NCBI RefSeq assembly: GCF_004364175.1
Contig: NZ_SNZW01000015.1
Span: 258,326 to 322,325 of the forward strand
Direction of reading: 5' to 3'
Length of the DNA: 64,000 nucleotides
Origin: Maribacter caenipelagi
GTDB lineage: Bacteria; Bacteroidota; Bacteroidia; Flavobacteriales; Flavobacteriaceae
Below are positions 5,229 to 25,658 of this stretch, in pieces. Below the pieces are notes generated by a model. The model was not told the origin of the DNA. It did not search any database and worked only from the letters and a program-made list of their open reading frames with translations. Every line of letters starts with the position of its first letter. The stretch's first letter is position 1. Made by a program: the position numbers and the translations under genes.

Positions 5229-7160
5229 ATGAATCGTATTTCTTATAATTTGAAAGCTGTTTCCATATTACTTATTCTAATTTCAATTTATAGTTGTAAT
5301 ACTACTTCCAGACCAGAATGGGAAGAACGAAATAACGAATTGATAAAGGAATATGGACTCAACGTAAGAGAACTGCCGAACCAACCTTCTACAGGAATAA
5401 ATCCCAACTTGGATGTAGGTACCGCTAAAAACCTTCAACTTTTGGATAGTGTGAAATTATATGATGGTGTCATAGCAAAAATTTTCTGGGGGAAAGAAAA
5501 TTTAGTAAGCATATTAGAATTAGGGCCAAATATTACGATACCTAATGAAAAATTAACCACGGATAGATTTCTCATTGTCATGGAAGGAACTATTAATCTC
5601 AAAAACGAGGATAACAATCTCAAAATGATTTCCAAAAACCGTGAAGAACCGGATGGCACCCATAGCGGAACTCCCAAAATGGATTTTATTTTTCAGAAAA
5701 AAGGAAGCGATAGCGAAATTGTAGTTGGTGACGAAGCAGCTAAGGTCATGGAAGTCTATAATCCTATTAGGTTGGATTATTTAGAAAAAATAGGTATAAC
5801 CGATTTACCATCTGAAATCCAAGAAAGAAGCACCAGCATACAAGCTACCATTGTTCCCAATACCGTTTATGACTTTTATGATATTCAGTTAACCCAAATT
5901 AAAAAAGGTGTATTTACCAGACTTGTTTCCGCAGGAAATATGCAGCTCAGTTTAGTGACGGCAGACCCAAATGCTGAATCCCAAGCACATATTCATCCAG
6001 AGGAACAGATTACTCTTTTGTTAAGGGGAAGCCTAACAGAAACGGTTTTGGATAAAAAGCTAAATCTAGAGCCAAAAGATATTGCATTTGTACCCGGGAA
6101 TATGGTACATGCTAACATTACGGGTGATACAGGCTTTGATGCACTTGAAATTTTTAATCCGATACGTGAAGATTATATGAAGAAGCAGCAAGCTTCACTT
6201 AAGAAATATCACCAAATAATTCCAAAAGATGCTAAACCAAAACTACTAATCGACGGTGCTAAGACAAAACCGAATTTGACCTTTAGTGAAGGACCTAAAT
6301 GGATGAACGGTAAACTATATTTTTCCAACATGTACTTTGACCAGAATTGGAACGCCGACCCAAAGAAAAGCACTATTGTAGCCATGGAAGAAGACGGAAC
6401 ATATACAAATATTATTGAAGGTAAAATGCAGGCGAACGGACTATATCCCTATAAAAATGGGAATTTGCTAGTCTGTGATATGATAGGGCATCGCGTCGTT
6501 GAAATGACCACCTCTGGAGAAGTGGTACGGGTCATTGCGGATTCCTACAATGGAAAACCTATAGACGGTCCAAACGATATCATTACCGATAGCAAAGGCG
6601 GAATTTATTTTACGGATCCGCAGTTTACTATGGAAACTGAAAAATTTCAGCCTGGAAGGGCGGTTTATTACATATCACCTGATAAAAAAGTTATTCGGTT
6701 AGTAGAACCCAACGAATTTGCCATGCCTAACGGAATTTTACTTTCGCCGGACGGCAAAACGCTTTACATTAATAATTGTTATGATGATGAGTCTTGGTAT
6801 CCCATAAATAGCTCCAAGGAAAATTTTGTTTGGGCTTATGACGTAAACGATGATGGTACCATATCCAATGGAAGAAAATTTGCCGAATTACGTTTAACGG
6901 GCAACGTACTTGACCGTAAAGGCAAATCCTCTAGTGCAGACGGAATGGCCATCGATACCATGGGGAATATTTATGTAGCCACTTATTTAGGAGTACAGAT
7001 ATTTGATTCCCAAGGAGACTTTACAGGTATAATCAACCTTCCTTCATTTCCTGTAAGCCTAGGGTTTGGTGGAGAGGATATGAAAACGCTTTACATAGTT
7101 AGTTATGATAAAATTTATGAGATTCCAACCCATATGAAAGGTTACGTAAATTACCTCTAA
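5229..7160 (+). CDS. Lipoprotein fusing two cupins to an SMP-30/gluconolactonase domain
   Basis: A 643-residue protein. The start MNRISYNLKA leads into a hydrophobic stretch and a lipobox ending at Cys23 (SIYSC), so it should be lipid-anchored outside the cytoplasm. Residues about 70-185 and 210-315 are two cupin folds; the second keeps a good metal site (AHIHPEEQ with two His and Glu, then PGNMVHAN). Residues about 335-640 are an SMP-30 six-bladed propeller with the expected metal ligands: Glu354 in SEGPKW, Asn449 in DGPND and Asp571 in SADGMA. SMP-30 enzymes open sugar lactones to aldonic acids. The fusion of cupins and lactonase suggests one protein that handles an oxidised sugar. The role of the cupins (isomerase, oxygenase or binding) is unknown. 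Confidence 0.85.
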   Translation: MNRISYNLKAVSILLILISIYSCNTTSRPEWEERNNELIKEYGLNVRELPNQPSTGINPNLDVGTAKNLQLLDSVKLYDGVIAKIFWGKENLVSILELGPNITIPNEKLTTDRFLIVMEGTINLKNEDNNLKMISKNREEPDGTHSGTPKMDFIFQKKGSDSEIVVGDEAAKVMEVYNPIRLDYLEKIGITDLPSEIQERSTSIQATIVPNTVYDFYDIQLTQIKKGVFTRLVSAGNMQLSLVTADPNAESQAHIHPEEQITLLLRGSLTETVLDKKLNLEPKDIAFVPGNMVHANITGDTGFDALEIFNPIREDYMKKQQASLKKYHQIIPKDAKPKLLIDGAKTKPNLTFSEGPKWMNGKLYFSNMYFDQNWNADPKKSTIVAMEEDGTYTNIIEGKMQANGLYPYKNGNLLVCDMIGHRVVEMTTSGEVVRVIADSYNGKPIDGPNDIITDSKGGIYFTDPQFTMETEKFQPGRAVYYISPDKKVIRLVEPNEFAMPNGILLSPDGKTLYINNCYDDESWYPINSSKENFVWAYDVNDDGTISNGRKFAELRLTGNVLDRKGKSSSADGMAIDTMGNIYVATYLGVQIFDSQGDFTGIINLPSFPVSLGFGGEDMKTLYIVSYDKIYEIPTHMKGYVNYL

Positions 7161-7176
7161 ATATTTTTTTTTGAAA

Positions 7177-7446: not shown

Positions 7447-8637
7447 CTATTTTACACCCATGCGTTCCAAGGTGTAAGTCACGAATGCATTTATACCAAA
7501 TTCCCATCTAGGAATTTGATTCGTTAAATTCACCCAATTAATTAATCTACCTAGTTTTGGGGAGGAAATAACTACTTCATCGTTAATTTTATGGGTGAAA
7601 CCCATTCCCTCTTCACCCCTGTCCAAGGTTGGTGCAAACATGGTACCACAGAAAAGTACAAACCCATCTGGATATTGATGATTGTCACTCAAAACCTGGT
7701 TTACAAGTTCCTCTGGTGATCTGCTTATTTCACCCATATCACTAGAGTCCTCCAATAAGAATCCATCCTTTCCTTCTATTTTTAGAGATACCTTAGCGGT
7801 TTTTAGATCTTCCATCGAAAACGTCTCATCCAACATTCTATATAAAGGCCCGATGGCACAAGAACCGTTTTGATCTTTTGCCTCTCCTAGGAGCAGGGCA
7901 CTTCTGCCCTCATAATCCCTCAAATTTACATCATTCCCTAAAGTTGCCCCCACAATTTGTCCTTTATTGGTGACTACCAAGACCACTTCAGGTTCAGGGT
8001 TATTCCAACCTGAGTCATGATGTACGCCAACTTCGGCACCAAAACCTACCGCTGAAAATGGTTGGGACTTGGTAAAGACTTCAGCATCAGGACCAATTCC
8101 CACCTCTAAATATTGGGACCAGATTCCCATCTTCTTCAATTCCTCCTTTAACTTCATTGCATGTTCAGATCCCGGCTTAACATTATTAAGACCTTCACCT
8201 ATGGTTGAGGTAATTTCCCCACGTATTTGCTTTGCTAATCTCGCGTCTCCCTTGGCCTTTTCCTCAATGACACGTTCCAACAGGCTTTTGATGAAAGTTA
8301 CACCACAGGCCTTAATCGCTTGGGTATCGTTTGGAGATAGTAAATAAGGTTTATTCTCATCTCTATTTTGAAAAAGTGAATTATCCAGGATTTCATCTAA
8401 TTTTGCTACTTCCGTTATTTTGGAATCCTCTGTATTTAAAACCTTTTTATAATTAGGACTATTAATTAGTTCACCAGTAGATTTAAAATAGTGGGATAGG
8501 TCATAGACCATTCCCATATGCACCCATATTACATGTGGACCCGCTATATTTCGATAAGCTATTTCTTTTGGTATGTGGCATCTTCCTATCCAAGTACCTT
8601 TATTCGCCATTCCTGGGATTATCTGATTTTTTTCCAT
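7447..8637 (-). CDS. Fumarylacetoacetate hydrolase-family sugar-acid dehydratase (XylX/AraD1-like)
   Basis: A 396-residue cytoplasmic protein with no signal peptide. The FAH fold is shown by the C-terminal half: GAEVGVHHDSGWNNPEPEV with metal-binding Glu215 and Glu217, then GNDVNLRDYEG with Asp236. The long form, near 390 residues, and this motif set resemble the 2-keto-3-deoxy-pentonate dehydratases of Weimberg-type pathways (Caulobacter XylX, AraD1 type) rather than true fumarylacetoacetase. It would convert 2-keto-3-deoxy-pentonate to 2,5-dioxovalerate, the substrate of the aldehyde dehydrogenase at 24093. It converges with the lactonase fusion gene. The FAH family call is firm; the substrate is inferred from gene context and could also be a hexonate or deoxyhexonate derivative. 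Confidence 0.8.
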   Translation of the reverse strand: MEKNQIIPGMANKGTWIGRCHIPKEIAYRNIAGPHVIWVHMGMVYDLSHYFKSTGELINSPNYKKVLNTEDSKITEVAKLDEILDNSLFQNRDENKPYLLSPNDTQAIKACGVTFIKSLLERVIEEKAKGDARLAKQIRGEITSTIGEGLNNVKPGSEHAMKLKEELKKMGIWSQYLEVGIGPDAEVFTKSQPFSAVGFGAEVGVHHDSGWNNPEPEVVLVVTNKGQIVGATLGNDVNLRDYEGRSALLLGEAKDQNGSCAIGPLYRMLDETFSMEDLKTAKVSLKIEGKDGFLLEDSSDMGEISRSPEELVNQVLSDNHQYPDGFVLFCGTMFAPTLDRGEEGMGFTHKINDEVVISSPKLGRLINWVNLTNQIPRWEFGINAFVTYTLERMGVK

Positions 8638-8822: not shown

Positions 8823-10037
8823 TTATGGTTTTCGAACATCATCACCCATAACGTCGTACCCCCGCCACTTAAATTCTTTGGCTAGACCTGAGGCAGCTGG
8901 CCAAGCAATCTGATGTTGCTCACTTGCTACCCACTTTCTACGATTTTCTTCAGTATCGAAAGATATCTGTATCTGGTAATTGAATGCGGTAGGTTCCGCT
9001 TGAATTTCCTTAGCCAAATCATTCGAAAATAATCGAAGTAATTTTGAGCTAAGATATCCATCTTGCACGACCATGGCGGGCACATAGATTGAATAATACA
9101 TTTTTTCAAAAGCAACTGCGTTTTTCTTGTCCACCACAAAATCCATTTGCAAGGTCATCGCCTTAGGTTTCTCCAAAGGCTTAACGATTAGTCCACTATC
9201 TTTTGATGCCGCAATACCTATGACCAAAATTTCAAGATTATCATTACCTGAACTGGTCCATGAAATTTCCTCTCCTAAACCCGCATAAAAGGAATCGTCT
9301 TTTTTAACTGTGGTAGACTCTGACCCCACAGTTACATCACCGCCTCCATTAATCACATAGTACACTTCTTCAACACCCTCTAATTGTCGCTTTTCAGTAT
9401 TGCTGCCAGAAGGAACAACCAAATGGTCCACATGATGCCAATCTGTTCGGAATACATCTGGTCTTAAAATACGGTTAAATAGAACTCCTTGTCCTTTGTA
9501 AACTTTGTCATTTGGTTTTAGTTGGTTTTTATCCAATCTAGATGCTACAAACGTTGGAATTTCATCCGTCTTAGAACTAACAAGATCATCATTCAAGTCA
9601 AAAGCATCTCCCTGTGCCTTTACTTCACTTACAGCAAAATTCAACCATTTAAGCGGTTTGCTAGAAGTATTATAAATTCCGTGAGAATCACCAAGCTTAC
9701 AGGGAACCAAGGCTGGACCTTTAATTTTCGATGTTCTTCCATTAATGGTAAATTCTGCCTCCCCATCAAGAATAACATACATTTCTTCAATGGTATGGTG
9801 AAAATGATGGCCAATACCCGATTTAGGATGAATTAAACCCGAATGTAAATACAAGAAATTAGTGGCCATATCGTTGCTACCGATAAGCTGTGTAAACCCC
9901 ATTTTACCGGCACCGGCATGTACCCCACTCAATTCACGATATGTAGGAGGGTCATTGTGGACGACCCTATCATTCAAGTTTTGCGCAATGGAGATGCTGC
10001 CCATTAGACAGCACAAAAAACTAAGGATTGGTTTCAT
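8823..10037 (-). CDS. Exported double-cupin protein with C-terminal dimeric alpha/beta-barrel
   Basis: A 404-residue protein with a signal peptide (MKPILSFLCCLMGSISIAQ). The first cupin (about 60-140) keeps a full metal site: HHFHHTIEE with His and Glu ligands, then SHGIYN. The second (about 190-275) has HHVDH and a Glu pair but weaker ligands. The C-terminal part, from about residue 290, looks like an antibiotic-biosynthesis-monooxygenase-like dimeric alpha/beta-barrel. Cupins next to sugar-acid genes are often isomerases or binding proteins; no reaction can be assigned here. It shares strand and neighbourhood with the PQQ dehydrogenase, 61 nt downstream of that gene's stop, and is probably in the same transcription unit. 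The lactonase fusion at 5229 carries similar paired cupins. Confidence 0.7.
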   Translation of the reverse strand: MKPILSFLCCLMGSISIAQNLNDRVVHNDPPTYRELSGVHAGAGKMGFTQLIGSNDMATNFLYLHSGLIHPKSGIGHHFHHTIEEMYVILDGEAEFTINGRTSKIKGPALVPCKLGDSHGIYNTSSKPLKWLNFAVSEVKAQGDAFDLNDDLVSSKTDEIPTFVASRLDKNQLKPNDKVYKGQGVLFNRILRPDVFRTDWHHVDHLVVPSGSNTEKRQLEGVEEVYYVINGGGDVTVGSESTTVKKDDSFYAGLGEEISWTSSGNDNLEILVIGIAASKDSGLIVKPLEKPKAMTLQMDFVVDKKNAVAFEKMYYSIYVPAMVVQDGYLSSKLLRLFSNDLAKEIQAEPTAFNYQIQISFDTEENRRKWVASEQHQIAWPAASGLAKEFKWRGYDVMGDDVRKP

Positions 10038-10098: not shown

Positions 10099-12351
10099 CT
10101 ACTTCTTATCCGGAATCCCGTATACCACATATCCCTTGGCAATTGCCCCGGGCTTCTTTGAATGGTCGTAACTATCGCTTCTAAAATTGGAAGTGGCATT
10201 GATAACCAAATATTCTTTTCCATTCAAGGTAAACATGCTTGGTTGGGCATTGGTCTCATTGCTCAAGGTAGTCTCCCAGAGGATGCTTCCATCTTCGCTG
10301 TCAAAAGCATAAACCCTTCCACCTTTAGCCGTCGCAAATACGATTCCAGTAGAAGTAATGACCATTCCCTTTCGCTGGGTACCGTTAGGCGCACCTTTGC
10401 TTTCATCTCCCTGTACATAAAGGGAATCTACCCCGATGGGTCGACGCCACTTTATGGAGCCATTGTTAAGGTCATAAGCTAGAATTGAAGACCAAGGCGG
10501 GTCGATAAGACCGGGCCAATCCAAGCCATAATCCGTAGTGTATCTGGCTTTTGGACGCTCAACATCTTCTGGATATTTCTCCATTGGTGCTCCACGTTGT
10601 GCATCAGATGGAATTGCTACCCCTCCCGAAGCTACAACGGGGCCATCTACAGTTGCTACCTCCTGATTGCCGCGTCTAAAATTCCTTCGTTCTGGATCAC
10701 CCCCAAGAAATTGGAACAAGGCTTTTAAAGAAGCTTCATCTACATGGACCAAACCTGGCATTACCCCCTTTCCATTGACAACGGTATTCCTAAATTCAGA
10801 ATAAAACATGTGATGTCCTATGTTTTTTAAGGAAGGGCCTGCCCCACCCTCCATATTTGGACCATGACAGGATATGCATGAAGAATTATAGAGCGATTTT
10901 ACCCTACCCACATCATTTGCCGTTAATTCGGTTTTTGGTGGTTCTACCTTGCTCAGCCGATAGGTGGAAGCATATTCTTGGGTTTGAATGTACATTATCC
11001 CGTTGTAAGGATCTGCCGCGGTGTTCCCGTAATTTGCACCTCCTAAGGCTCCTGGCATTATTAAAGTTTCATATTTATCTGAAGGTGGTACGTACAACCC
11101 AGTTTTAGCAGAATCTAATCGTTGTAACCAATCTTGCCTGAGACTATCCGAAAAGAAAGGATTCAAATTTTCTTTGGTAACCTCGTGTCTTGTAAAACTT
11201 GGTAGTGATGTTATGGGCTGTGTTGGCCAAGATTCTTCCCCTGGCATTTGGCTTTTAGGAAATGGTTTTTCCTCAATGGGAAATAATGATTCACCGGTTA
11301 CACGGTCGAACACAAAAACAAAACCATGTTTGGTAGCGATGGCCACGGCGTCCACTTTTTTACCATCCTTATCTACAGTTAATAATTGAGGCGCCGGTGA
11401 AAGGTCATAATCCCAAAGATCGTGATGAACGGTTTGGTAGTGCCAAATTCTTTCGCCCGTTCGGGCATCTACGGCGACTAGGGAGTTAGCAAACAAATTA
11501 CTTCCCAACCGATCGGCACCGTAATAGTCGTAAGTAGGCGATCCGATGGGCAAATAAGCGATTCCACGTTCGGAATCTACCGAAATTTCACTCCACACAT
11601 TGGCACCGCCAACATATTTGTAAGCATCCTTGGGCCAAGTATCATAGCCGAATTCCCCGGGGTGAGGAATGGTATGAAAGGTCCATTCCAATGTACCCGT
11701 TACCACATTATAAGCCCTTATATGACCTGGTGGAGAAAAATAAGCTTCCCCAGGTGCTGAACCTAATATTAAAAGGTCATCATAGATTACCCCGGGCATC
11801 ATGGATTGAATTCTAGTTACCGATGTAGGGTCACGATCCAATCCTTCCCTAAGGTCAACATATCCCTCTGTTCCAAAATCTAAAATTGATTTACCTGTTT
11901 CAGCATTTATTGCCTGAATGGAATTGTTTAGGGTAAATAGTAGTCTTTTGTCTTTTTTGTCTTCGCTTTCCCAATAGTTGATTCCCCTTCTCGTAATGCC
12001 GGGAAGATCTGTGTGTATCCAAAGCTCTTCCCCAGTCCTGGCATGAATAGCGATTAGGGAACTATTCTTTCCCAATACATACATGGTACTGTCCACAATA
12101 ATTGGGCTAAAAAAATAAAACCGATCATCACCCGATGGATAGCTCCACAGTATTTCCATTTCTGACACGTTGGACTTTGTAATGCCGGGTGACTCAAAGA
12201 ATTTTGATTGGTCCGGGCTACCACCGTAATGGGACCATGTAGTATGTTCTAAACTCTTCTTCGTCCCAGTTTCGCACCCAATCGTTATGCTTGCCATAAC
12301 AATTGTGAGGAGGACTATTCGAAAGAAATAAAACCATTTATTTTTTATCAT
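10099..12351 (-). CDS. PQQ-dependent sugar/alcohol dehydrogenase lipoprotein with inserted cytochrome c domain
   Basis: A 750-residue quinoprotein. The lipobox at ITIGC puts a lipid-bearing Cys at 26. The beta-propeller of the PQQ dehydrogenase family is clear from repeated blade motifs (AIHARTGEELW, AVDARTGERIW, AFDSEDGSILW) and the HHDLWDYDLSPAP block. A cytochrome c module is inserted at about 478-555: CISCH haem site (Cys492, Cys495, His496) and a likely axial Met in GVMPGL. The propeller resumes after it. Such enzymes oxidise sugars or polyols to lactones or ketones outside the cytoplasm and pass electrons through the haem to the respiratory chain. It is the best candidate for the first step of the local sugar-acid route. 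The substrate is not readable from sequence, and PQQ synthesis genes are not in the window. Confidence 0.88.
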   Translation of the reverse strand: MIKNKWFYFFRIVLLTIVMASITIGCETGTKKSLEHTTWSHYGGSPDQSKFFESPGITKSNVSEMEILWSYPSGDDRFYFFSPIIVDSTMYVLGKNSSLIAIHARTGEELWIHTDLPGITRRGINYWESEDKKDKRLLFTLNNSIQAINAETGKSILDFGTEGYVDLREGLDRDPTSVTRIQSMMPGVIYDDLLILGSAPGEAYFSPPGHIRAYNVVTGTLEWTFHTIPHPGEFGYDTWPKDAYKYVGGANVWSEISVDSERGIAYLPIGSPTYDYYGADRLGSNLFANSLVAVDARTGERIWHYQTVHHDLWDYDLSPAPQLLTVDKDGKKVDAVAIATKHGFVFVFDRVTGESLFPIEEKPFPKSQMPGEESWPTQPITSLPSFTRHEVTKENLNPFFSDSLRQDWLQRLDSAKTGLYVPPSDKYETLIMPGALGGANYGNTAADPYNGIMYIQTQEYASTYRLSKVEPPKTELTANDVGRVKSLYNSSCISCHGPNMEGGAGPSLKNIGHHMFYSEFRNTVVNGKGVMPGLVHVDEASLKALFQFLGGDPERRNFRRGNQEVATVDGPVVASGGVAIPSDAQRGAPMEKYPEDVERPKARYTTDYGLDWPGLIDPPWSSILAYDLNNGSIKWRRPIGVDSLYVQGDESKGAPNGTQRKGMVITSTGIVFATAKGGRVYAFDSEDGSILWETTLSNETNAQPSMFTLNGKEYLVINATSNFRSDSYDHSKKPGAIAKGYVVYGIPDKK

Positions 12352-12434: not shown

Positions 12435-13370
12435 TTACCAAGTTCTTTTCTTTAATATTTCCTCAATTTGTTCTTTGGATACTGGAAGGTCATCAATATG
12501 TTCGTTAAGCCATTTGCTGAAATCCTTTTCAATTTCCTCGGCCCAGCGAGTATCAATTTGTCCTGCAGTATAGACACCTTCTTTTATCCGAAGATGACCG
12601 AACATATCACGCAAACGAACAACTTCAGATGTTGTGGCCACTTTCTCAGCCAAATGTGGTGGAATAAAAGTAACCACACCCATTTTACCCAAAACAACAT
12701 CTCCAGGCATTACAGTTACGGTTCTAATTCTAGTAGGTTGATTTATACCTACCAGCATAGTATTCAAATCACCTGGAGGATTATGGTGTGATGCATCGTA
12801 ACTGGTATAAAAGGAAGTAAATCCTCCAATTTCCACCAGTCCTTCAACATCTCTAAGTGCTCCGTCGTATACAATTCCATTACCAGTTTTAGCAAATATT
12901 GCATTACCTACATTATCTCCAATAGTAGGTCCATCCTTATCAGCACCAAATTGATCGGCCACGTAAACATCGCCCTTCACCAAAATATCTACAGGCCAAG
13001 TATTCTGTCCACGCTTTCCTGCTGCTTTTCCACGGTCATCTATGGCTTTCCACACATCTGGACGGCCTGGCATAAATGTTGCCGTAACGGCACGACCTAC
13101 CAAAACGCTATCCGCATTAATCAATTTCCAATCTTCAGCAATTTGATACCGGTATCCTTCATTTTTCATCACGGCCCAGGCCTCCTCAACACTTACAGCT
13201 TTCATCCTTTCTAAAAGTTCATCGGAAACTTTTGGCCTTCCGTCTTCATAACGCTCTCCCGTCCATTGAGGAGTTAAAAAAATAAGTTCTTCCTTACTGA
13301 TCTGTTGCCCCATCAACTGGCTTGCCAGACCGACAAGAACCATTAGGAGCAAATACTTTTTGCGTAACAT
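12435..13370 (-). CDS. RraA-like aldolase-family protein with signal peptide
   Basis: A 311-residue member of the RraA-like / 4-hydroxy-4-methyl-2-oxoglutarate aldolase fold. The core motif GNAIFAKTG, then YDGALRDVEG, keeps the Arg-Asp pair that binds metal-pyruvate in the class II pyruvate aldolases of this family. Unlike the short cytoplasmic RraA proteins it starts with a clear signal peptide (MLRKKYLLLMVLVGLASQLMG) and has longer N- and C-terminal parts. It could cleave or decarboxylate a keto acid outside the cytoplasm. It sits 27 nt after the stop of the dehydratase gene and 83 nt before the PQQ dehydrogenase start, on the same strand. Activity is inferred; binding without catalysis is also possible. 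Confidence 0.75.
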   Translation of the reverse strand: MLRKKYLLLMVLVGLASQLMGQQISKEELIFLTPQWTGERYEDGRPKVSDELLERMKAVSVEEAWAVMKNEGYRYQIAEDWKLINADSVLVGRAVTATFMPGRPDVWKAIDDRGKAAGKRGQNTWPVDILVKGDVYVADQFGADKDGPTIGDNVGNAIFAKTGNGIVYDGALRDVEGLVEIGGFTSFYTSYDASHHNPPGDLNTMLVGINQPTRIRTVTVMPGDVVLGKMGVVTFIPPHLAEKVATTSEVVRLRDMFGHLRIKEGVYTAGQIDTRWAEEIEKDFSKWLNEHIDDLPVSKEQIEEILKKRTW

Positions 13371-13397: not shown

Positions 13398-14678
13398 TTA
13401 TTCAAAAAACGGTATACCTTCTGGTGCATATTTTCTCATCGCATCCTCATTGATATCTACTCCAATACCCGGTTTATCTGAAACTTTAACGAAACTATCT
13501 TTAACCCAATCTCCTTCATCATACGTAACTATTTCTTTAAACATTGGATCTGTATGGAAATAGGATTGCCATTCCATTAAATGAAAATTAGGTACCGAGG
13601 CACATACATGTGCACAAGCCATTGCTCCAAGAAACGATGCAACCATGTGAGGTGAGAAAGGTTTATAATATAAATTGGCTAGGTTAGCAATTCTCTGCCC
13701 TTCACCAAGCCCACCACATTTTTGGAGGTCTGGCATTATTATATCTACACCATTATCCAACAATTGTTTAAAACCGTGACCTAAATATACATTTTCACCT
13801 GCCGAGATTGGTGTACTTGTTTCTTCTGTAAGCGTTTTGAAGGCATCAAAATTTTCTGCAGGAATAGGCTCCTCTAACCAAGTAAGGTTTAAATCCTCGA
13901 CTTTCTTTGCAATTGTTTGGGCTGTTACATGATCATAGCGTCCGTGCATATCCACACATAAATCTATTTTTGGTCCGACTGCCTCTCTAACGGCAGCAAG
14001 TTGATCATACATTCTTATAATTTCTCCAGGACTTGCGGTCCAATTATACCTATCATACTTATCAGGATCGCTTGCATAATCTATATCAAATTTAAGTGCA
14101 TTAAAACCCCAGTTTTTAATAGCATCTTTTGCCGCAGTTGCAAAATCATCTGGTGATGGGAAACGAACACGGTACAATGCCGTATCACAATAAACCCTTA
14201 CCTTATCTCTAAATTTGCCTCCAAGTAATTTATATACAGGTAAGTCCAAAGCTTTACCCGCCAAATCCCATAAAGCAGTTTCTATTGCCGAAAGAACGGC
14301 AACGTAAGTACCTGACTGCCCACCACCGAAATGACCTGCACGACGAATATCTTCAAATATTTTATGGACATTAAACGGACTTTGATCTTTTAAAAAAAAT
14401 CCCATTCTTTTGACCAGGTGGTAAGTACCGGGTACGGCATCAACGCCCTCTCCGCAACCATAGATTCCTTGATTGGTGTGTATTTTTACAAACAGGCCGC
14501 TTCCACGACGAATAAATCCACATTTTACATCCGTAATTTTTAAATCCGATGGGGAAGAAAGTTTAGGATTTTCATCTATTGCCGTAACGTATTCGTTACC
14601 ATAAGTACTTGAAACCATTCCTAAACCGGCACTGGCCATCAGCGATTTGGATATAAAAGATCTTCTTGAATTTTTCAT
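13398..14678 (-). CDS. Enolase-superfamily aldonate dehydratase-like protein with Tat signal
   Basis: A 426-residue mandelate racemase/muconate lactonising enzyme family protein. The N-terminus SRRSFISKSLMASAGLGM is a twin-arginine signal, so it should be exported folded, with metal bound. Metal ligands are visible as Asp243 (VDMHG), Glu269 or Glu270 (LEEP) and Glu295 (AGEN). Catalytic candidates are Lys196 (LKFDID), Asp317 (MPDLQKCGG), His344 (SPHM) and Glu369 (MEW). This set fits sugar-acid dehydratases of the superfamily (galactonate, rhamnonate or arabinonate type). It would turn an aldonate made by the PQQ dehydrogenase and lactonase into a 2-keto-3-deoxy acid. A periplasmic location is unusual for this reaction. 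It is followed by the RraA-like gene. Confidence 0.85.
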   Translation of the reverse strand: MKNSRRSFISKSLMASAGLGMVSSTYGNEYVTAIDENPKLSSPSDLKITDVKCGFIRRGSGLFVKIHTNQGIYGCGEGVDAVPGTYHLVKRMGFFLKDQSPFNVHKIFEDIRRAGHFGGGQSGTYVAVLSAIETALWDLAGKALDLPVYKLLGGKFRDKVRVYCDTALYRVRFPSPDDFATAAKDAIKNWGFNALKFDIDYASDPDKYDRYNWTASPGEIIRMYDQLAAVREAVGPKIDLCVDMHGRYDHVTAQTIAKKVEDLNLTWLEEPIPAENFDAFKTLTEETSTPISAGENVYLGHGFKQLLDNGVDIIMPDLQKCGGLGEGQRIANLANLYYKPFSPHMVASFLGAMACAHVCASVPNFHLMEWQSYFHTDPMFKEIVTYDEGDWVKDSFVKVSDKPGIGVDINEDAMRKYAPEGIPFFE

Positions 14679-18123: not shown

Positions 18124-18127
18124 GGTT

Positions 18128-21100
18128 CTAGAATTTAACATTAAGACTAAAATTAAAATTACGGGTGGTTGGCAGTGCTGAATTTTCATAACCGGCCCTA
18201 AAATCACCAGAGGACTGAATAGCTTCAGGATCAAGTCCAGGAATATCCTTATAAAGAATAGCAACATTTCTACAAGAAGCAGCTATGGTCAATCCCTTTA
18301 TAAACTTCATATCTGCCATATTGCTAACAATATTCGTAAGGTCGTAGGATAATGAAATACTTCTCAACTTTATAAAATCAGATTTAAATGTAAATGGATC
18401 TCCAATTTGAAGATTACGGTAATCTGCATAAAAGGATTGTAAATTGCTTACCGCCGTAGTATTTGTTTGTCCATTACTTTCATATACACTATTTGGTACA
18501 ATTACACCGTTCTCTCCCTCTCTTCGACCTTCAAGTGAAAACTGGGAATGCCCTTGCCTTGTCATATTCAAATGTGTAGATGATAACATTGTTCCACCAA
18601 ACCTATAATCGATCAAAAAACTAAAATTCAGATTTTTATAGGAAAAATTATTATTCCATCCCCCTATGTGTTTAGGTATGGAGCTACCTACCGGTAAAAA
18701 TCCATTTGTGTTTTCAGCTCCGGGCGTATCGCCGTTTGTAGCCAATAATCTACCATCATCATTGACCAAAATCTGACCACTTTCATTTCTTCTATAAGTT
18801 CTGGTATATAATTGGTTCATTGGTAATCCCTCGGTATATCTTAGTTCCCCAAGGAATTCGTTTCCGGTCCCATTAAAGAAAATCAATAAAAGTGTACCAC
18901 TATCGTTCCCAACATCCAATACTTCAGTCGAAAGGTAAGCGTTGTTCCAAGTACTTGTCCACCTGAAATCATCGGTTTGTATTGGCACGACTTCTATCAA
19001 AGTTTCCAATCCGCTATTCCTTAACGATCCTAAGTTTTGCTTTGAATTATCATATCCAGATGCATTGGATAAGGTTACATCCAGCACTTGGTCAGTGGTA
19101 ACCTTATCAAAAGCAGCTATATCTAGGCGAAGGCGACTTTTAAACATCCGCATTTCCAAACCAATTTCTTTCTCCGTTACTGTAAAGGGTTGTAAAAATG
19201 GATTTGGAGCGAAGCTGCCTGAAACACCGGCAGTTGTCTGACCATTAAAAGGTGGATTCAAGGTATAGTTTAGAACACCCTCATACGTACCAACACCATT
19301 TGCACTACCTACCTCGGCCCAAGAACCTCTTAGTTTACCGTAATCTAACCAATTGCGTTCTTCAAATAATTCTGAGAAAATGAAACTACCGGATACTGAG
19401 GGGTAGAATACACTATTGTTTTCAGGATTAAGCACTGAGAACCAATCCTGTCTTCCCGTAAAATTCAAGTACATTAAATTATCGTAACCAAATTCGGCTA
19501 AACCGTATAATGAATTAATTCTGAATGTACTAAACTGGTAAGGTTGAAAACCGGCTTGATCAGTTTCAAAACTTGTACCATTCGTGATAGAATATAGGTC
19601 AGGGACAACAAACAGTCTTGAATATTGGGCATTTCTTTGAAATTGTGAACGCCAAGTGTTACCTCCGAAACTTGCATCAACAGAAAACTTTCCAAGTTCT
19701 TTGTTTGCACCTAGTAGGAAATCAGCATTTACATCACGGGTTTGGGTCTGTTGAATATCATAACGACCTCTATAAAATCCTGTATCGCCTTCTAAGGTAG
19801 TTGTAGCTCCAGCTCCATTAAGCTCATTCCATTCCGTAAAATTGGTTGCATAGTCATAGTTATAGCGTCCTTGAAGATAGAGCCAATCTGTAAATTGATA
19901 CCTTAAAGTAGCCGTGCCCAATAGACGGTTTCTATTATCATTAAAGAATTGATTTTTTTGCAATTGGTAATAGGGATTGTTTATGGTTCCTAAAAATCCA
20001 TTGGTACGAAGTTCTGCATCGGTAACAGGATCAATGGCACTTTGTTGATACGCCTCTACAGGAGTAGAGATAGCCAATCTATTAAAAAAACCTACGGCAC
20101 CGGGACCTTGTGTACCAATCTGTGGTGGATTTATATTCTCCTCATTGGTATAATTAACGTTTAAAAGCATATTCAACTTCTCTGTTACGTTATAGTTTAT
20201 ACCTACATTAAATATACGTTTCTTATATTCATTTGACGGTTGAATTCCCTCAGCTGAAGTATTCGCAAATGAAGCACGGAAACTTCCTTTTTCATTTCCT
20301 CCTGAAAACCCAACGGTATTGGTTAGGTTTGTTCCTGTTCTAAGGAAATCATAGAGTTGATACGGGTTAGGAGAATAAGGTCTAGACACACCGTCAAAGT
20401 TTACAGTGGGTGCTCCATCAAATCGTTCTCCAAAACTAAACTGCCCTGTACCTTGGGCCTCTCCCTGTGTCTGTGGTCGCATTCCACCAGTTCCTTGCCC
20501 ATACTCGGCCTGTCTTATTTCATCCAAAAAATTCAACGCATGTGAGGTAGTAATACTTGATGTAAAATCAACGCCAATACCTTGGTTTAAACTACCTGTT
20601 TTTGTTGTTATAATTACCGCACCATTAGCTGCCCTAGCACCATAAATAGCCGCGGCAGTAGCACCCTTAAGTACGGTCATACTTTCAATATCGTCTGGAT
20701 TTAGATTCTGTAGGTTATCCCCAAGATCCCTTGAATTATCACGCCCATTGGCACCTCTAGCACCTTGGTCTATGGGAAGACCGTTGATTACAAATAATGG
20801 TGAATTACTTGCACCTGCAAAAGCGGATTGACCACGCAAACGAATTTGAACACTGGCACCAGCACCTGCTGATGGAGGGCTAATGTTTAAGCCCGCAACC
20901 TTACCTTGCAAAGACTCCATAGCGTTTACTGTTCTGGTTTTGGTAAGCTCTTCGGTATCAACCGAGGTCACTGCATACCCTAATTTTTTGGCATCTCTTT
21001 TAATTCCTAGACCAGTTACGACCACTTCGTCCAAGCTTTGCATATCTTCTGCCATAGTGACATCCATAACACTGGATTGGCCGGTTGATAACTCTTTTCT

Positions 21101-21691
21101 AGCAAAACCAATGGAACTAAAAATTAAAATGGCATTAGGCTGTGTAAGGGTAATTGAGTATTCACCATCAAAATTCGTTGCAACACCATTTGAAGTTCCC
21201 TTTTCCACAACAGACACTCCTGGAATAGGCTGCCCATTAACATCGGATACCTTACCCGAAATACTTTGTTGAACACTAACAGTAGTTGTTTCCTTATTTT
21301 GTTTTTTTGGTAATTTATTGTTTAGAACTTTTGATTTCGGTTTTAATACAATTTGATTTCCCTTAAAAATAAAATCAATGTTCGAATCATTAAAAAGCAC
21401 TGAAAGGATTTCGTCTAAAGCTGTGTTTTTCACATTTATGGACACCAATTTTGATGTGTCTATCTTTTTGACATCATAGAGAAACTTAAAGTCAGTTGCG
21501 ACTTCAATTTCTTCCATCACCTTAATAGTTTGTACATTTTCCAAATTAAGGGTCATTTTCGTTTTTTGCGAAAATGAACTCGCTTGGATTGAAAAGAAAG
21601 TCGTAATCAAAAGTATGGTTAAGAGTTTGGTTCTTAAACCAATGTTCATTGTATTGGATATTTTGGTCCCAATGGATCTATTATTTTTCAT
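18128..21691 (-). CDS. SusC/RagA-family TonB-dependent transporter with STN signalling domain
   Basis: A 1187-residue outer-membrane transporter. After the signal peptide comes an STN domain (about 45-125, LNLENVQTIKVMEEIEVATD onward) that contacts an anti-sigma factor. Next are a carboxypeptidase-regulatory-like domain (about 143-225, SGKVSDVNGQPIPGVSV), then a plug with DEVVVTG and GKVAGLNI, and a 22-strand barrel of SusC type ending in FSLNVKF. The STN domain ties it to the FecR and ECF sigma genes directly upstream, so substrate binding should signal to transcription. It is followed after 4 nt by SusD. A second Met at residue 15 is a possible alternative start. The transported glycan is not readable from sequence. 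Confidence 0.93.
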   Translation of the reverse strand: MKNNRSIGTKISNTMNIGLRTKLLTILLITTFFSIQASSFSQKTKMTLNLENVQTIKVMEEIEVATDFKFLYDVKKIDTSKLVSINVKNTALDEILSVLFNDSNIDFIFKGNQIVLKPKSKVLNNKLPKKQNKETTTVSVQQSISGKVSDVNGQPIPGVSVVEKGTSNGVATNFDGEYSITLTQPNAILIFSSIGFARKELSTGQSSVMDVTMAEDMQSLDEVVVTGLGIKRDAKKLGYAVTSVDTEELTKTRTVNAMESLQGKVAGLNISPPSAGAGASVQIRLRGQSAFAGASNSPLFVINGLPIDQGARGANGRDNSRDLGDNLQNLNPDDIESMTVLKGATAAAIYGARAANGAVIITTKTGSLNQGIGVDFTSSITTSHALNFLDEIRQAEYGQGTGGMRPQTQGEAQGTGQFSFGERFDGAPTVNFDGVSRPYSPNPYQLYDFLRTGTNLTNTVGFSGGNEKGSFRASFANTSAEGIQPSNEYKKRIFNVGINYNVTEKLNMLLNVNYTNEENINPPQIGTQGPGAVGFFNRLAISTPVEAYQQSAIDPVTDAELRTNGFLGTINNPYYQLQKNQFFNDNRNRLLGTATLRYQFTDWLYLQGRYNYDYATNFTEWNELNGAGATTTLEGDTGFYRGRYDIQQTQTRDVNADFLLGANKELGKFSVDASFGGNTWRSQFQRNAQYSRLFVVPDLYSITNGTSFETDQAGFQPYQFSTFRINSLYGLAEFGYDNLMYLNFTGRQDWFSVLNPENNSVFYPSVSGSFIFSELFEERNWLDYGKLRGSWAEVGSANGVGTYEGVLNYTLNPPFNGQTTAGVSGSFAPNPFLQPFTVTEKEIGLEMRMFKSRLRLDIAAFDKVTTDQVLDVTLSNASGYDNSKQNLGSLRNSGLETLIEVVPIQTDDFRWTSTWNNAYLSTEVLDVGNDSGTLLLIFFNGTGNEFLGELRYTEGLPMNQLYTRTYRRNESGQILVNDDGRLLATNGDTPGAENTNGFLPVGSSIPKHIGGWNNNFSYKNLNFSFLIDYRFGGTMLSSTHLNMTRQGHSQFSLEGRREGENGVIVPNSVYESNGQTNTTAVSNLQSFYADYRNLQIGDPFTFKSDFIKLRSISLSYDLTNIVSNMADMKFIKGLTIAASCRNVAILYKDIPGLDPEAIQSSGDFRAGYENSALPTTRNFNFSLNVKF

Positions 21692-21785: not shown

Positions 21786-22973
21786 CTATTTTTTATCATT
21801 GTTTAGTTGTTTGTATATATGTATACTATCTCCAATTATTTCATATTCAAATGATGTTTCAATCTTGAAGGTCTCCAATACTTCCCGCATGGTTTCAGTT
21901 TCAAATGTTGCCGTAAAAAATCTTTCATTTAAAGCTTCGTAATCATTATTGATTTTTACATTATAATGACGTTGTAATCGTTGTATTATATTTGAGAACT
22001 TCATTTTCTTCATAGCCAACTTACCTTCTATCCAACCTGTATACAATTCGGTATTTACTTTATTTACTACCATTTGTTTGTAGGTTGTATTCCAATCTGC
22101 CTTGTAACCTGGTGAAAGCAAAGTGGAATCATCCTCATTATAAGTCTCCCCTGCTTCGTAAAGCCGAACAGAACCTTCAACTAAAACTGTAATTTGATTT
22201 GTATCTTCTGGGTAAGAAGTAACATTGAATTTAGTTCCCAACACCCGAACATCCATCTTTCCGGTTGTTACGATAAAAGGGCTATGCTCATTTTTACGAA
22301 CATCGAAAAAAGCTTCACCAATAAGGGAAACCTCCCTATTTTTTCCCTTTATAAATTTTACAGGATATTTTAAAGAAGAGCCTGAGTTAAGATTAACCGC
22401 AGTTCCATCTGAAAGCACGATCTTAAAAGTTTTACCGTTTGGAACACGAACAGTATTATACTCTAACTCAAAATCATCATCTTCTACAACTTGATTGAGT
22501 GAGTAGTCAACAACTCCGTCATCTTTTCTACCTAGAATATTTCCATTATCAGCTACAATACTATATTCTCCTTGTTGGCTGAGCACCTGTATTTCACCAT
22601 TTCCCCTTTCTAAAATAACTGCCGTAGGATCTATTTGCGTTTCAATTACATTTTGAGTATTTAATGACTTGTAAATAAAAAAGCACCCTATTAAACTGAC
22701 AAAAACTGCAGCATAACGGAATAAACTATTATATAAAAATCTATTGTTTTTAGTAGGTCTATTTTTTTGAATCTCAGTTGATATTAATTTCCAAGCTTCT
22801 TGCGGATTAATATCTTTGCTATTTGGAAGTAAGACGTTATTTCGATGTAACTCTTTAAGCCGCTTATAGGTTAAAAAATTTTCGTCATTTTCGGACAACC
22901 ACTTTTTGAAAAGAATTTCTTCTTCTCTACTTAATTGTTCACGTAACTTTTTAAGGATAATTTCTGCTATCAA
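21786..22973 (-). CDS. FecR-family anti-sigma factor
   Basis: A 395-residue single-pass inner-membrane protein. An N-terminal cytoplasmic helical region (SREEEILFKKWLSENDENF) binds the sigma factor. A membrane segment follows at about 88-106 (AVFVSLIGCFFIY). The periplasmic FecR domain has VPNGKTFKIVLSDGT and GEAFFDVRKNEHSPF, and a C-terminal STN-like part (FSNIIQRLQRHYNVKI). It should hold the ECF sigma factor until the STN domain of the SusC transporter signals ligand. It lies between the sigma and SusC genes, 94 nt before SusC. Confidence 0.9.
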   Translation of the reverse strand: MIAEIILKKLREQLSREEEILFKKWLSENDENFLTYKRLKELHRNNVLLPNSKDINPQEAWKLISTEIQKNRPTKNNRFLYNSLFRYAAVFVSLIGCFFIYKSLNTQNVIETQIDPTAVILERGNGEIQVLSQQGEYSIVADNGNILGRKDDGVVDYSLNQVVEDDDFELEYNTVRVPNGKTFKIVLSDGTAVNLNSGSSLKYPVKFIKGKNREVSLIGEAFFDVRKNEHSPFIVTTGKMDVRVLGTKFNVTSYPEDTNQITVLVEGSVRLYEAGETYNEDDSTLLSPGYKADWNTTYKQMVVNKVNTELYTGWIEGKLAMKKMKFSNIIQRLQRHYNVKINNDYEALNERFFTATFETETMREVLETFKIETSFEYEIIGDSIHIYKQLNNDKK

Positions 22974-23087: not shown

Positions 23088-23591
23088 TTATAGCATCCAT
23101 AAATACACATCCCTTAAATTTAATCGTAAAATTTTGAATGTCTTTTTTAGGTGGTATTTTACAGTATTAACCGTAATACCCATTATTTCGGCCGCATTTT
23201 CATATTTAATACCTTCTAAAACACAAAGCTCAAACACCTTCCTATTCTGATCAGGCAGGGCATCGATTTCCCTAAATAAAGTTTGTGATATTTCTGAGCG
23301 AATCAATTCATGCTCATAAGATGGAACTTCACTTGAATAATTCTCAATTGAAAAAGTTCGTTGCTTCTTTTTGATTCTTTTTAAACTTTCGTTTCGAATT
23401 GAAGTATTTATATAACTTTTAAGATCCTTAATAGGTTCATTACATTCTTTTTGTAAAAGTTTAATAAATATACTTTGTACAACATCTTTCGAATCGTCCA
23501 AATCACCAACATAACTAAAGGACAATAAACACCACTCCTGATAATGTTTCAGAAACATTTGTTCAAGAACTAATGCATTAATTATTGCCAT
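23088..23591 (-). CDS. ECF RNA polymerase sigma factor (FecI-like)
   Basis: A 167-residue sigma-70 family protein with region 2 (VGDLDDSKDVVQSIFIKLLQ) and region 4 (LPDQNRKVFELCVLEGIKYENAAEIMGITVNTVKYH split over a helix-turn-helix). Size and order fit the Bacteroidetes ECF group that is paired with FecR and STN-bearing SusC. It should turn on the SusC-SusD unit, and perhaps the sugar-acid genes, when the transporter is occupied. First gene of the unit; fecR follows 114 nt after the stop. Confidence 0.9.
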   Translation of the reverse strand: MAIINALVLEQMFLKHYQEWCLLSFSYVGDLDDSKDVVQSIFIKLLQKECNEPIKDLKSYINTSIRNESLKRIKKKQRTFSIENYSSEVPSYEHELIRSEISQTLFREIDALPDQNRKVFELCVLEGIKYENAAEIMGITVNTVKYHLKKTFKILRLNLRDVYLWML

Positions 23592-24092
23592 TTTACTATA
23601 TAAGATGTTAAAATTTTACTGTAAACTTAATATTAAATTATATTTGTTAAGATTAAATAATTGTATATTTCACACTTAATATGCTGGCAATATATTAATT
23701 TGTTATTATTTCTACAATAAAAAAATGGATTTAACATATTTGAACTATAATAAACCCAATTGTAATATGCTACTAATCCAAAGAGTATATATAGAATAAT
23801 ATATTCGATAAGACACTATATAATAAATTACAGATAAAATTGAACTTTTAGAAAAGTGTCTTTTTTCTAATAAGAGTATCAGTAATAACACGTTTGATAA
23901 ATTGGAAAACGAGATAAATTTTTAAATCAAAATGTTGAATGTGAAGAGTAAAATAAATTAACCTTTTAAAGAATATATTTTTTAGTATAGTGGGGATGAA
24001 TTAAAGTCAGATATTTAAACTAATTCGGTTTAGTCAAAACTAAATCGATTCGAGGACTTAGATTAATGTAAATCTTAAAAATAAAACTATCA
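23592..24092. other. AT-rich divergent promoter region, no gene
   Basis: About 500 nt between the sigma gene (- strand) and the dioxovalerate dehydrogenase (+ strand). No coding stretch was recognised. It must carry both promoters. Near the right end is a dyad (24025-24048) described separately. Confidence 0.6.
24025..24048. promoter_or_regulatory. Candidate operator dyad upstream of dioxovalerate dehydrogenase
   Basis: TCGGTTTAGT, a CAAA spacer and ACTAAATCGA form an inverted repeat with one mismatch, ending 44 nt before the start codon. The shape fits a LacI- or GntR-type dimer site. No regulator for it is evident in the sigma/SusCD half of the window. Confidence 0.45.
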
Positions 24093-25658
24093 ATGGCAAA
24101 AGCGATTAATACTGAACAAAATTACATAGCAGGAAATTGGGTCAAAGGAAAGGGTAAAGAATTCTGGTCCTATAATCCAGCTACGGCAGAAAAAGGCAAA
24201 GTTTATATTGAAGGTGATCAAGAACAGGTTAATACAGCAGTAGAACAGGCAGCTATAGCATTTGAAACAGTTAAGAAAAAGAGTACCGCTGAAAGGGCCA
24301 CTTTACTGGAATCCATGGCAGAAGAGTTAGAGGCTTTGGGAGATGAACTCATAAAAGTTTGTGATATGGAAACCGGATTGGGTGAAGCACGACTTACAGG
24401 AGAACGTGCAAGAACTTGTGGACAACTCCGTGCCTTTTCCGCTTTGGTAAAACAAGGTCATTGGCAACAGGCAAGAATCGATACGGCCATACCTGACCGA
24501 AAACCACTTCCAAAGCCAGATATTAGGCGTATTTTTAGGCCCATGGGAACTATTGCCGTTTTTTCGGCTTCAAATTTTCCGTTAGCTTTCTCAACATTGG
24601 GAGGTGATACCGCATCTGCAATTGCCGCAGGTAATTGTGTTGTTGTGAAGGCACATCCTAGCCATCCAGGTACTTCCAAGCTATGTGCGGAGGCAATGCA
24701 AAGAGCAATTCTGAAAAACAACTATCCTCCAGAAATGTTTTCAATGGTACAGGGAGTTTCCCCAGAAGTAAGTCAAGCCTTGGTTCAACATCCACAATTA
24801 AAAGCGGTCGGTTTTACAGGAAGTACTCATGTGGGTAGGATCTTATTCGATTTAGGAGCATCTAGACCAAATCCAATACCTGTGTTCGCAGAAATGGGAA
24901 GCACAAATCCAATGATTATTCTACCTTTGGCTATTGCAAATAACGGAGTTGAAATTGCAAAAGGTCTAGCAAATTCCATAACCCTTGGAACGGGTCAATT
25001 TTGCACCAAACCAGGCCTGATATTAATCCTGAAAGATAAAAATAGCCCTGAGTTTGTTGGTAATCTAAAAAATGCTCTAGAATCAATTTCTATCGGTCAT
25101 TTTTTGAACGCTAGAATCCATAGTAGTTTTCAAAAAGATGTGGCAAAAACAGCTACTGTTGCTGGTATAGAAATGGTTTCAACTAAAGATGAAGGTGGAA
25201 AACTATTTGAAATCGATGCCGAGCATTTTTTACAATCCCCTAATCTAGAGGATGAAATCTTTGGGCCTGTCGCTATCTTGATTAATTGTGATACCATAAA
25301 TCAATTAAATAAAATAGTTGAAACTTTTGGTGGTCATTTAACGGGAACAATTTTTGCTGATGGTGATTCGGAGCTTTCCTCTGTTAAAGACTCATTAGAA
25401 GATAAAGTTGGCAGATTAATTTTTAATGGATATCCTACCGGTGTAGAGGTTTGCCCTTCTATGCATCATGGAGGGCCTTATCCATCTTCTACTTTTCCTG
25501 CAACCACTTCTGTGGGAACAGCTGCCATTGAACGATTTTGTACTGTAAAGTGTTATCAAAATATTCCTGAAGAACTTTTGCCTATAGCATTACAAAATAA
25601 AAATCTGGATAGGATTTTACGAATGGTTAATGGAGTTTATACTACCGAGGATATTTAA
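24093..25658 (+). CDS. 2,5-dioxovalerate (alpha-ketoglutarate semialdehyde) dehydrogenase
   Basis: A 521-residue aldehyde dehydrogenase of the KGSADH class. The catalytic Cys304 is in GTGQFCTKPG and the general base Glu267 in FAEMGSTNP, both in the form typical of this class rather than the usual ELGGK. The cofactor part shows SASNFPLAFSTLGGD and GFTGSTHVGR. It oxidises 2,5-dioxovalerate to 2-oxoglutarate with NAD(P), the last step of Weimberg-type pentose and of hexarate routes. No signal peptide, so cytoplasmic. It stands alone, divergent from the sigma gene, with its own dyad. It pairs functionally with the FAH-family dehydratase at 7447. Confidence 0.9.
   Translation: MAKAINTEQNYIAGNWVKGKGKEFWSYNPATAEKGKVYIEGDQEQVNTAVEQAAIAFETVKKKSTAERATLLESMAEELEALGDELIKVCDMETGLGEARLTGERARTCGQLRAFSALVKQGHWQQARIDTAIPDRKPLPKPDIRRIFRPMGTIAVFSASNFPLAFSTLGGDTASAIAAGNCVVVKAHPSHPGTSKLCAEAMQRAILKNNYPPEMFSMVQGVSPEVSQALVQHPQLKAVGFTGSTHVGRILFDLGASRPNPIPVFAEMGSTNPMIILPLAIANNGVEIAKGLANSITLGTGQFCTKPGLILILKDKNSPEFVGNLKNALESISIGHFLNARIHSSFQKDVAKTATVAGIEMVSTKDEGGKLFEIDAEHFLQSPNLEDEIFGPVAILINCDTINQLNKIVETFGGHLTGTIFADGDSELSSVKDSLEDKVGRLIFNGYPTGVEVCPSMHHGGPYPSSTFPATTSVGTAAIERFCTVKCYQNIPEELLPIALQNKNLDRILRMVNGVYTTEDI

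Follow-up and report, generated by a model that had tools for sequence, protein, structure and literature searches.

We describe a gene set from Maribacter caenipelagi that may carry out part of sugar-acid catabolism outside the cytoplasm. It lies in a stretch of 64,000 nucleotides (contig NZ_SNZW01000015.1, positions 258,326 to 322,325; hereafter the window), a single stretch of a 4.28-Mb genome, and is centered on three genes, encoding an enolase-superfamily dehydratase with a twin-arginine translocation (Tat) signal, an exported RraA-family protein, and a BASS-type anion symporter. The best explanation of the whole, to which we give about an even chance of being correct, is that its core is a periplasmic dehydratase-aldolase module. 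An earlier note on this DNA had already placed a dehydration outside the cytoplasm; the likely second half, which the note missed, is cleavage, also outside. Signal sequences were judged from sequence reading and simple scripts, domains from Pfam, and protein families from NCBIfam cut-offs.

In the scheme that we propose, hemicellulose sugars would be oxidized outside the inner membrane by a heme-bearing lipoprotein of the pyrroloquinoline quinone (PQQ) type, and the resulting lactones would be opened by a lipoprotein with an SGL domain. The Tat enzyme, of the MR/MLE type, would dehydrate the aldonate to a 2-keto-3-deoxy acid, which RraA would split into pyruvate and a short aldehyde (in the case of a C5 acid, glycolaldehyde). 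The BASS protein would import a small acid, either pyruvate or the oxidized aldehyde, and a cytosolic FAH-family protein together with an alpha-ketoglutaric semialdehyde dehydrogenase (KGSADH) candidate would form a parallel inner branch for sugar acids entering uncut. An extracytoplasmic function (ECF) sigma factor, FecR and SusC-SusD probably link the set to a ligand at the outer membrane.

The dehydratase and its RraA partner

The closest NCBIfam model of the dehydratase is galactonate dehydratase, and the score (233.7 bits) is below the cut-off of 311, so we call the enzyme DgoD-like only. When it is aligned with E. coli DgoD, the reference sequence of which was taken from its annotated genome, D243, H245, E269, E295, D317, H344 and E369 stand opposite D183, H185, E209, E235, D258, H285 and E310, which we take to be the metal ligands, the D-x-H histidine, the His-Asp dyad and a late Glu. 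The features of a DgoD-type site (metal ligands D-E-E, D-x-H and the H-D dyad) are all present, and the seven residues are, gaps apart, invariant among the 73 close orthologues having the column. The twin-arginine pair is found in 72 of 73 close orthologues, the exception (L097) being an open reading frame (ORF) with its initial portion in a different frame, and TatC is encoded in the genome. The earlier proposal that the oxidation machinery and the first dehydration are located outside the cytoplasm is supported by these data. Judged from its signal and active site, the enzyme appears to dehydrate an aldonate there.

The gene recurs together with that of RraA. A contig scan gave 72 loci, of which 68 were counted and four (L102-L105) set aside as distant or fragmentary; the 68 include metagenome-assembled genomes (MAGs), and 47 have full 10-kb flanks and 21 shortened ones. 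RraA is present in 65 of them, and in 64 it is a close copy (at least 57% identity), which lies on the same strand less than 300 bp from the dehydratase gene in 63 of these 64 (median gap 46.5 bp; the exception, L097, has 470 bp). RraA is missing from L060, where the contig starts 123 bp before the dehydratase match, from L076 and from L085, and L095 has only a copy of 51% identity on the opposite strand. Same-strand neighborhood at this distance in 63 of 68 loci indicates that the pairing is more than chance. Of the gene set listed in the earlier note, it is thus the exported pair that recurs in other Bacteroidetes; FAH and/or KGSADH stand near it in only 9 of 68 loci. The Weimberg pathway, which the note had taken as the core, has to give way on this point, since the conserved partner is the exported RraA, which the note had listed without a role.

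Co-occurrence was also examined at the genome level, in 345 Bacteroidota genomes. The dehydratase was found at E <= 1e-50 in 12, comprising nine close orthologues (that of G507 in two pieces) and three proteins of 34-36% identity. RraA was found at E <= 1e-40 in 20 genomes, and the nine with at least 62% identity are exactly the nine with the close dehydratase. BASS (E <= 1e-70) occurred in 24 genomes, 18 of them among the 20 with RraA, and in 15 of these 18 the two genes lie within 2.1 kb; in G507 they are split between contigs, and in G479 and G536 they are apart. It could be argued that the dehydratase and RraA merely share a hemicellulose regulon and act in unrelated reactions, given that the adjoining cytosolic genes differ by clade. 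We consider this extremely improbable in view of the 63 of 64 measured loci with close same-strand spacing, and of the co-occurrence in the same nine genomes in both directions.

The dehydratase was found in 14 of 299 genomes of the family, counting its own, and was absent from the two other genomes of the genus among those listed; its best matches are in Maribacter and Allomuricauda. Three MAG contigs titled as non-Bacteroidota (L085, L090, L095) carry it with a twin-arginine start, and misbinning is possible; L090, titled Gammaproteobacteria, also has the PQQ enzyme, RraA, BASS and a small FAH protein.

Several features of RraA suggest the reaction. The motif D-X20-R-D spans residues 152-174 of the window protein and is shared by all 70 close copies examined. 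A profile built from 25 exported RraA proteins matches the HMG/CHA aldolase structure 3noj (E 3e-9), in which the D...R-D residues align with D152, R173 and D174; the family model of that aldolase (TIGR02798) is not reached (31.7 bits, cut-off 304.5). The predicted model of the window protein has a mean pLDDT of 87.4, and by a crude test 63 of the 68 copies with 290 aa or more have the h-region of a signal. The two motifs of the RraA family are reportedly D-X20-R-D and G-X20-R-D-X2-E/D. Most RraA homologues hold one of two motifs for metal binding and catalysis and are regarded in one report as likely class II pyruvate aldolases (PMC5065237). A tree of 119 RraA proteins has a branch (support 1.0) that sets apart 70 of the 71 copies found next to this dehydratase only; five copies situated between this and a second dehydratase, labelled apart, group with the partners of the latter. 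The exported RraA probably cleaves the 2-keto-3-deoxy acid by a retro-aldol reaction, as its pairing and motif suggest, and the near-constant pairing together with the HMG-aldolase motif suggests that the keto acid is processed further outside.

Proposed exchangeable front ends, the transporter and opposing evidence

The main argument for this role comes from the other partners of RraA. The second Tat dehydratase, here called MRb, keeps the metal ligands and the dyad in 23 of 23 members, with Tyr, Phe or Trp replacing the D-x-H histidine, and the twin-arginine pair is likewise present in 23 of 23. It occurs in 21 of the 68 loci. In Maribacter flavus (L094:5661-8509) a second Tat dehydratase-RraA pair is located between SusD and DUF4440; compared with window positions 15839-18267, that second-pair stretch gave no match beyond 30 bases.

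Among 20 stretches chosen from the 30 RraA rows of the 345-genome sample, MRb accompanies RraA with BASS in six and without BASS in three, the window-type dehydratase with BASS in three, and a pyridoxal phosphate (PLP) enzyme set with BASS in four. In the one locus of this set that was scanned, the Tat enzyme of the DgaE family does not reach its model (TIGR01437, 166.9 bits against 385.3), nor does the RidA-like protein (67.7 of 106.25), and the amidohydrolase exceeds its cut-off (NF006689, 436.1 of 371). By a crude pattern the PLP enzymes (7/7), the RidA proteins (6/6) and most amidohydrolases (7/9) look exported. The DgaE-like protein is present in seven sample genomes, all seven with RraA and BASS, and is at most 4.3 kb from RraA in four. 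Four loci (L111, L114, L115 and L118) combine the Tat PLP lyase, an exported amidohydrolase, RraA and BASS with neither dehydratase, and RidA is added in L111, L114 and L118. Such clusters are possibly an amino-sugar-acid counterpart of the window set. In L063 both dehydratase-RraA pairs, the PLP set and one BASS gene form a single same-strand run. UxuA is normally cytosolic; L113 encodes a Tat protein (7599-8666) above the cut-off of a mannonate dehydratase subfamily (NF003027, 228.2 of 191) and below the stricter uxuA model (157.3 of 199.55), accompanied by two MRb, RraA and BASS.

In the Dga pathway, which is cytosolic, the aldolase DgaF receives the keto-deoxy product of the ammonia lyase (PMC9529869), and by analogy RraA would occupy the DgaF slot in the Tat DgaE-like sets. 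Unrelated front ends, all expected to make 2-keto-3-deoxy acids, are found with the same RraA and BASS, which argues that such an acid is the substrate of RraA and that the cargo of BASS is a product common to them all. We therefore put forward, tentatively and at somewhat less than an even chance, that Bacteroidota possess an extracytoplasmic non-phosphorylative Entner-Doudoroff-type pathway with a shared RraA/BASS back end, in which C-C cleavage is periplasmic and only small acids are imported. Its exchangeable exported front ends would be two Tat enolase-superfamily dehydratases, a Tat UxuA-like dehydratase, and a Tat DgaE-like ammonia lyase with RidA and a deacetylase.

A number of observations weigh against the periplasmic dehydratase-aldolase module. 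BASS stands near the dehydratase-RraA pair in just 40 of the 68 loci. Four of the 20 RraA stretches have no front end (one with BASS, three without), and six of the 20 lack BASS. The hypergeometric values for co-occurrence (5e-23 for RraA-BASS, 6e-18 for dehydratase-RraA) ignore phylogeny. Among the 33 less closely related RraA copies of the loci, 24 lack D-X20-R-D and nine have it, so that the aldolase reading is firmest for the close RraA clade. A literature search found no assay of any member of the set. Moreover, a gene resembling KDG kinase lies with that of KDPG aldolase beside BASS in four loci (L038, L039, L043 and L031), and in L038, which was scanned, the former is below and the latter over its cut-off; neither would be of use if the keto acid were split entirely outside. 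A DHDPS-family gene is found in L061, L067 and L075. These neighbors suggest that part of the keto acid enters the cytoplasm intact.

The score of the transporter exceeds the SBF cut-off of 24.3 bits and does not reach the PanS equivalog (239.9 of 400), and its structural match is ASBT_NM (3zux, E 3e-69). The Asn of pantoate carriers is kept in 52 of 54 BASS members, and the Thr site is Leu or Val in 51 of 54. Reading the cargo from these residues was given up, as they fit neither reported signature (Thr/Asn for pantoate, Gln/Ser for the plant carriers). According to one study, Ser and Gln occupy these positions in plant proteins that transport pyruvate, glycolate and keto acids, ketopantoate gave ASBT_NM no stabilization, and its authors think that a retained Asn disfavors a ketone (PMC10645422). 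Being unlike the plant keto-acid carriers at these residues, BASS does not favor pyruvate import, although pyruvate is possible, and a 2-hydroxy acid (glycolate, glycerate or the aldonate itself) is a possible cargo that would fit as well. Of the import step in the earlier note, an anion carrier in the same run stands, and import of the intact keto acid is not part of our core reading.

The assignment of RraA can be questioned from another side. A flavobacterial member of its family, FlDet, is a KDGR dehydratase/decarboxylase and not an aldolase, inactive on KDG and on every other keto acid tested besides KDGR (PMC8563752). If RraA had the same activity, it would act on a 2-keto-3-deoxy-aldarate made outside, and alpha-ketoglutaric semialdehyde would be imported and oxidized by KGSADH, a candidate for which lies in the window. 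We regard this as very improbable, because the genome's own FlDet-like protein is a separate gene (L001), one of only two RraA-like genes found in the genome; its product has 237 aa, no signal, and R-D-X2-E instead of D-X20-R-D. It is possibly the KDGR dehydratase/decarboxylase of an alginate pathway. KGSADH is present in only 6 of the 68 loci, and the motif K-x-K, a mark of aldarate dehydratases, is replaced by K196-F-D198 in the window enzyme.

Cytosolic genes and the remainder of the locus

A different use of the keto acid would be a split Weimberg pathway, with the exported dehydratase making 2-keto-3-deoxy-pentonate, BASS importing it intact, FAH and KGSADH converting it to 2-oxoglutarate, and RraA as an accessory. 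The names of both cytosolic candidates are less secure than the earlier note had them. The FAH protein, named a dehydratase in the earlier note, has no NCBIfam match at E <= 0.001; it does carry the FAA_hydrolase domain, and its two solved relatives are 9kkt (FAH family, not named further, E 6e-105) and 2-keto-3-deoxy-D-arabinonate dehydratase (KdaD, 2q18, E 1e-22), with which its P-E-P-E...D-V...R-D stretch is aligned. Dioxovalerate dehydrogenase, the earlier name for the aldehyde dehydrogenase, is indeed its best NCBIfam match, at 132.9 bits against a cut-off of 750; its structural relatives are 3v4c and 1eyy.

We consider the split scheme unlikely. FAH and/or KGSADH lie near the pair in nine loci (L040, L046, L059, L063, L074, L089, L090, L092, L094), with FAH proteins of two subfamilies, and in L059 and L063 a small FAH gene and KGSADH precede FecR/Sus; the KDG-kinase-like, KDPG aldolase and DHDPS-family genes mentioned above would also suit an imported keto-deoxy acid. 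On the other hand, 59 of 68 loci have neither FAH nor KGSADH in the available flanks (42 of the 47 with full flanks, the other five having one or both), RraA is left without a role, and BASS keeps the Asn that, in the view of one study, disfavors a ketone (PMC10645422). Counted singly, an FAH orthologue, a small FAH protein and IlvD each occur in three loci. The Weimberg pathway as a conserved unit was consequently rejected as the core.

FAH and KGSADH could work without the exported dehydratase, since this genome also encodes an IlvD/Edd-family dehydratase next to a GntP-like permease (the pair at L135:8351-11404). The former is 69% identical to one beside KGSADH in Parachryseolinea (L074), and the permease is 30% identical to that of L089. 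Through this pair, an aldonate oxidized outside could be dehydrated inside and passed on to FAH and KGSADH, and the split scheme is thus possible, but not forced by the gene set.

The nature of the sugar acid is a related question. The exported dehydratase and RraA might act on uronates of glucuronoxylan, such as (4-O-methyl)glucuronate or its aldarate, and not on pentonates. GH67-like (13), CE15-like (12) and UxuA-like (14) genes are found among the 68 loci, mainly in Larkinella and Spirosoma, and GH8 and esterase genes adjoin the window set. In L040, L041 and L092 the set adjoins L-arabinose isomerase-like and GH51-like genes, which point to pentoses, as do FAH and KGSADH, and the DgoD-type residues suit aldonates; we find the uronate alternative improbable. 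These "-like" names were read from sequence and not from a family search. Sugar hints differ by clade, with arabinose-type, glucuronoxylan-type and Weimberg-tail genes each adjoining the set in different clades.

Every ORF named in the earlier note was found where it had been placed and with the export features ascribed to it, by Pfam and sequence reading (Table 1). This includes the sigma factor, FecR and SusC, to which SusD is added; the exported two-domain cupin and DUF4440 proteins are further members of the run. On the minus strand the order is sigma factor, FecR, SusC, SusD, DUF4440, BASS, Tat dehydratase, RraA, PQQ-heme lipoprotein, cupin and FAH, with gaps of 11 to 83 bp from DUF4440 to the cupin gene and of 185 bp before the FAH gene. 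On the plus strand this run is flanked by the genes for the cupin-SGL lipoprotein, esterases and GH8 at one end and by that for the aldehyde dehydrogenase at the other, so that xylan-degrading genes adjoin the sugar-acid set. SusC and SusD occur in 33 of the 68 loci each, the PQQ enzyme and DUF4440 in 18 each, cupin-SGL in 13 and the two-domain cupin in 10.

Table 1. Genes of the proposed pathway and their neighbors in the window
Feature	Position	Strand	Basis
Tat enolase-superfamily acid-sugar dehydratase, DgoD-like active site	13398..14678	-	Pfam MR_MLE; SRRSFIS
Exported RraA-family protein, proposed class II 2-keto-3-deoxy-acid aldolase	12435..13370	-	PF03737 50.7 bits; signal-peptide-like N-terminus
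BASS/PanS-type anion:Na+ symporter, proposed small-acid importer	14721..15827	-	SBF 135.1 bits
PQQ-type dehydrogenase lipoprotein with inserted c-type heme domain, proposed periplasmic aldose/aldehyde oxidase	10099..12351	-	Pfam PQQ and Cytochrome_CBB3; lipobox
Cupin-SMP-30/gluconolactonase lipoprotein, proposed aldonolactonase	5229..7160	+	Cupin_2, SGL 132.5 bits; lipobox ...IYSC
Exported two-domain cupin protein	8823..10037	-	Cupin_2, two stretches
Cytosolic FAH-family protein, proposed 2-keto-3-deoxy-pentonate dehydratase	7447..8637	-	FAA_hydrolase 34 bits; no signal seen
Cytosolic aldehyde dehydrogenase, proposed KGSADH	24093..25658	+	Aldedh; no signal seen
Exported DUF4440/SnoaL-like protein	15839..16405	-	PF14534; true start probably within ORF
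SusD-like_2 lipoprotein	16561..18267	-	PF12771 222.1 bits; true start probably within ORF
SusC-like TonB-dependent transporter with STN domain	18128..21691	-	Plug, CarbopepD_reg_2, STN
FecR-type anti-sigma factor	21786..22973	-	FecR, FecR_C
ECF-type sigma factor	23088..23591	-	Sigma70_r2, Sigma70_r4_2

The PQQ lipoprotein matches the PQQ propeller at E 4.8e-152 and contains a CBB3 cytochrome domain (residues 482-549, CxxCH at residue 492) and the lipobox ...TIGC; it is plausible that electrons enter the respiratory chain via this heme. The heme domain sits between two propeller matches and not at the end of the protein. D-L/I-W-D-Y-D is present in 17 of 17 members checked. We make no claim of lanthanide use, since D-Y-D at the catalytic Asp, although found in all 17, can also be carried by glucose-type PQQ enzymes. 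Neither do we claim that the host makes PQQ: a PqqE search of the genome gave 58.2 bits at best against a cut-off of 381.35, a weak negative as no control genome passed either, and PQQ may have to be scavenged. A second PQQ-type dehydrogenase, 41% identical, is encoded outside the cluster (L136:7300-9471). The structural match of the cupin-SGL lipoprotein is 3e5z, a putative gluconolactonase.

Two further parts of the window were noted. An ORF of 122 aa between esterase genes (2058-2426, plus strand) has no Pfam match and by eye resembles pieces of the neighboring esterase. Positions 26876-35431 (minus strand) hold a cluster of L-rhamnose/L-fucose type, with a Pfam-less membrane protein, an FMN dehydrogenase (L-lactate type), an FGGY kinase, a RhaA-like isomerase (weak match), a class II aldolase-SDR fusion and a GntR regulator.

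Relation to known systems

Pathways of sugar-acid dehydration and cleavage normally run in the cytoplasm. If our hypothesis is true, the C-C bonds of sugar acids can also be cleaved outside that compartment, there is a reason why Bacteroidota export dehydratases by Tat, and a function can be given to many proteins named just "RraA family protein" (among the best 120 of 7308 homologues at E <= 1e-10, 8000 candidates scored). A literature search for the pathway and its parts returned no description of an exported dehydratase-RraA pathway among the matches listed.

The Weimberg pathway, from D-xylose or L-arabinose to 2-oxoglutarate, resembles the window set insofar as candidates for oxidation, lactonase, aldonate dehydratase, 2-keto-3-deoxy-pentonate dehydratase and KGSADH are all present. 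It differs in that the dehydratase here is exported and of the enolase superfamily, the exported RraA is a near-constant partner, and FAH and KGSADH are optional. The Dahms and non-phosphorylative Entner-Doudoroff pathways share aldonate dehydration followed by retro-aldol cleavage of an unphosphorylated 2-keto-3-deoxy acid; to our knowledge the described forms operate in the cytosol with aldolases of other families. The DgaABCDEF glucosaminate pathway has a PLP ammonia lyase and, after it, an aldolase that acts on a 2-keto-3-deoxy acid (PMC9529869). That pathway is cytosolic and phosphorylated with another aldolase, whereas here a Tat DgaE-like enzyme, a RidA-like protein and RraA are found.

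For RraA itself, the HMG/CHA aldolase of P. putida F1 (3noj) is an RraA-like family member with an aligned D-X20-R-D, but it is an enzyme of aromatic degradation and only remotely similar. FlDet, from Flavobacterium sp. UMI-01, also belongs to the RraA family and acts on a 2-keto-3-deoxy sugar acid; it differs in having 237 aa without a signal at the N-terminus and in being a KDGR-specific dehydratase/decarboxylase, and in the present genome its likely orthologue is encoded separately and has a different motif. With regard to location, the periplasmic quinate pathway of Acinetobacter, consisting of a PQQ quinate dehydrogenase and an exported dehydroquinate dehydratase, likewise places both PQQ oxidation and dehydration outside, but with a cyclitol as substrate, an unrelated dehydratase and no aldolase.

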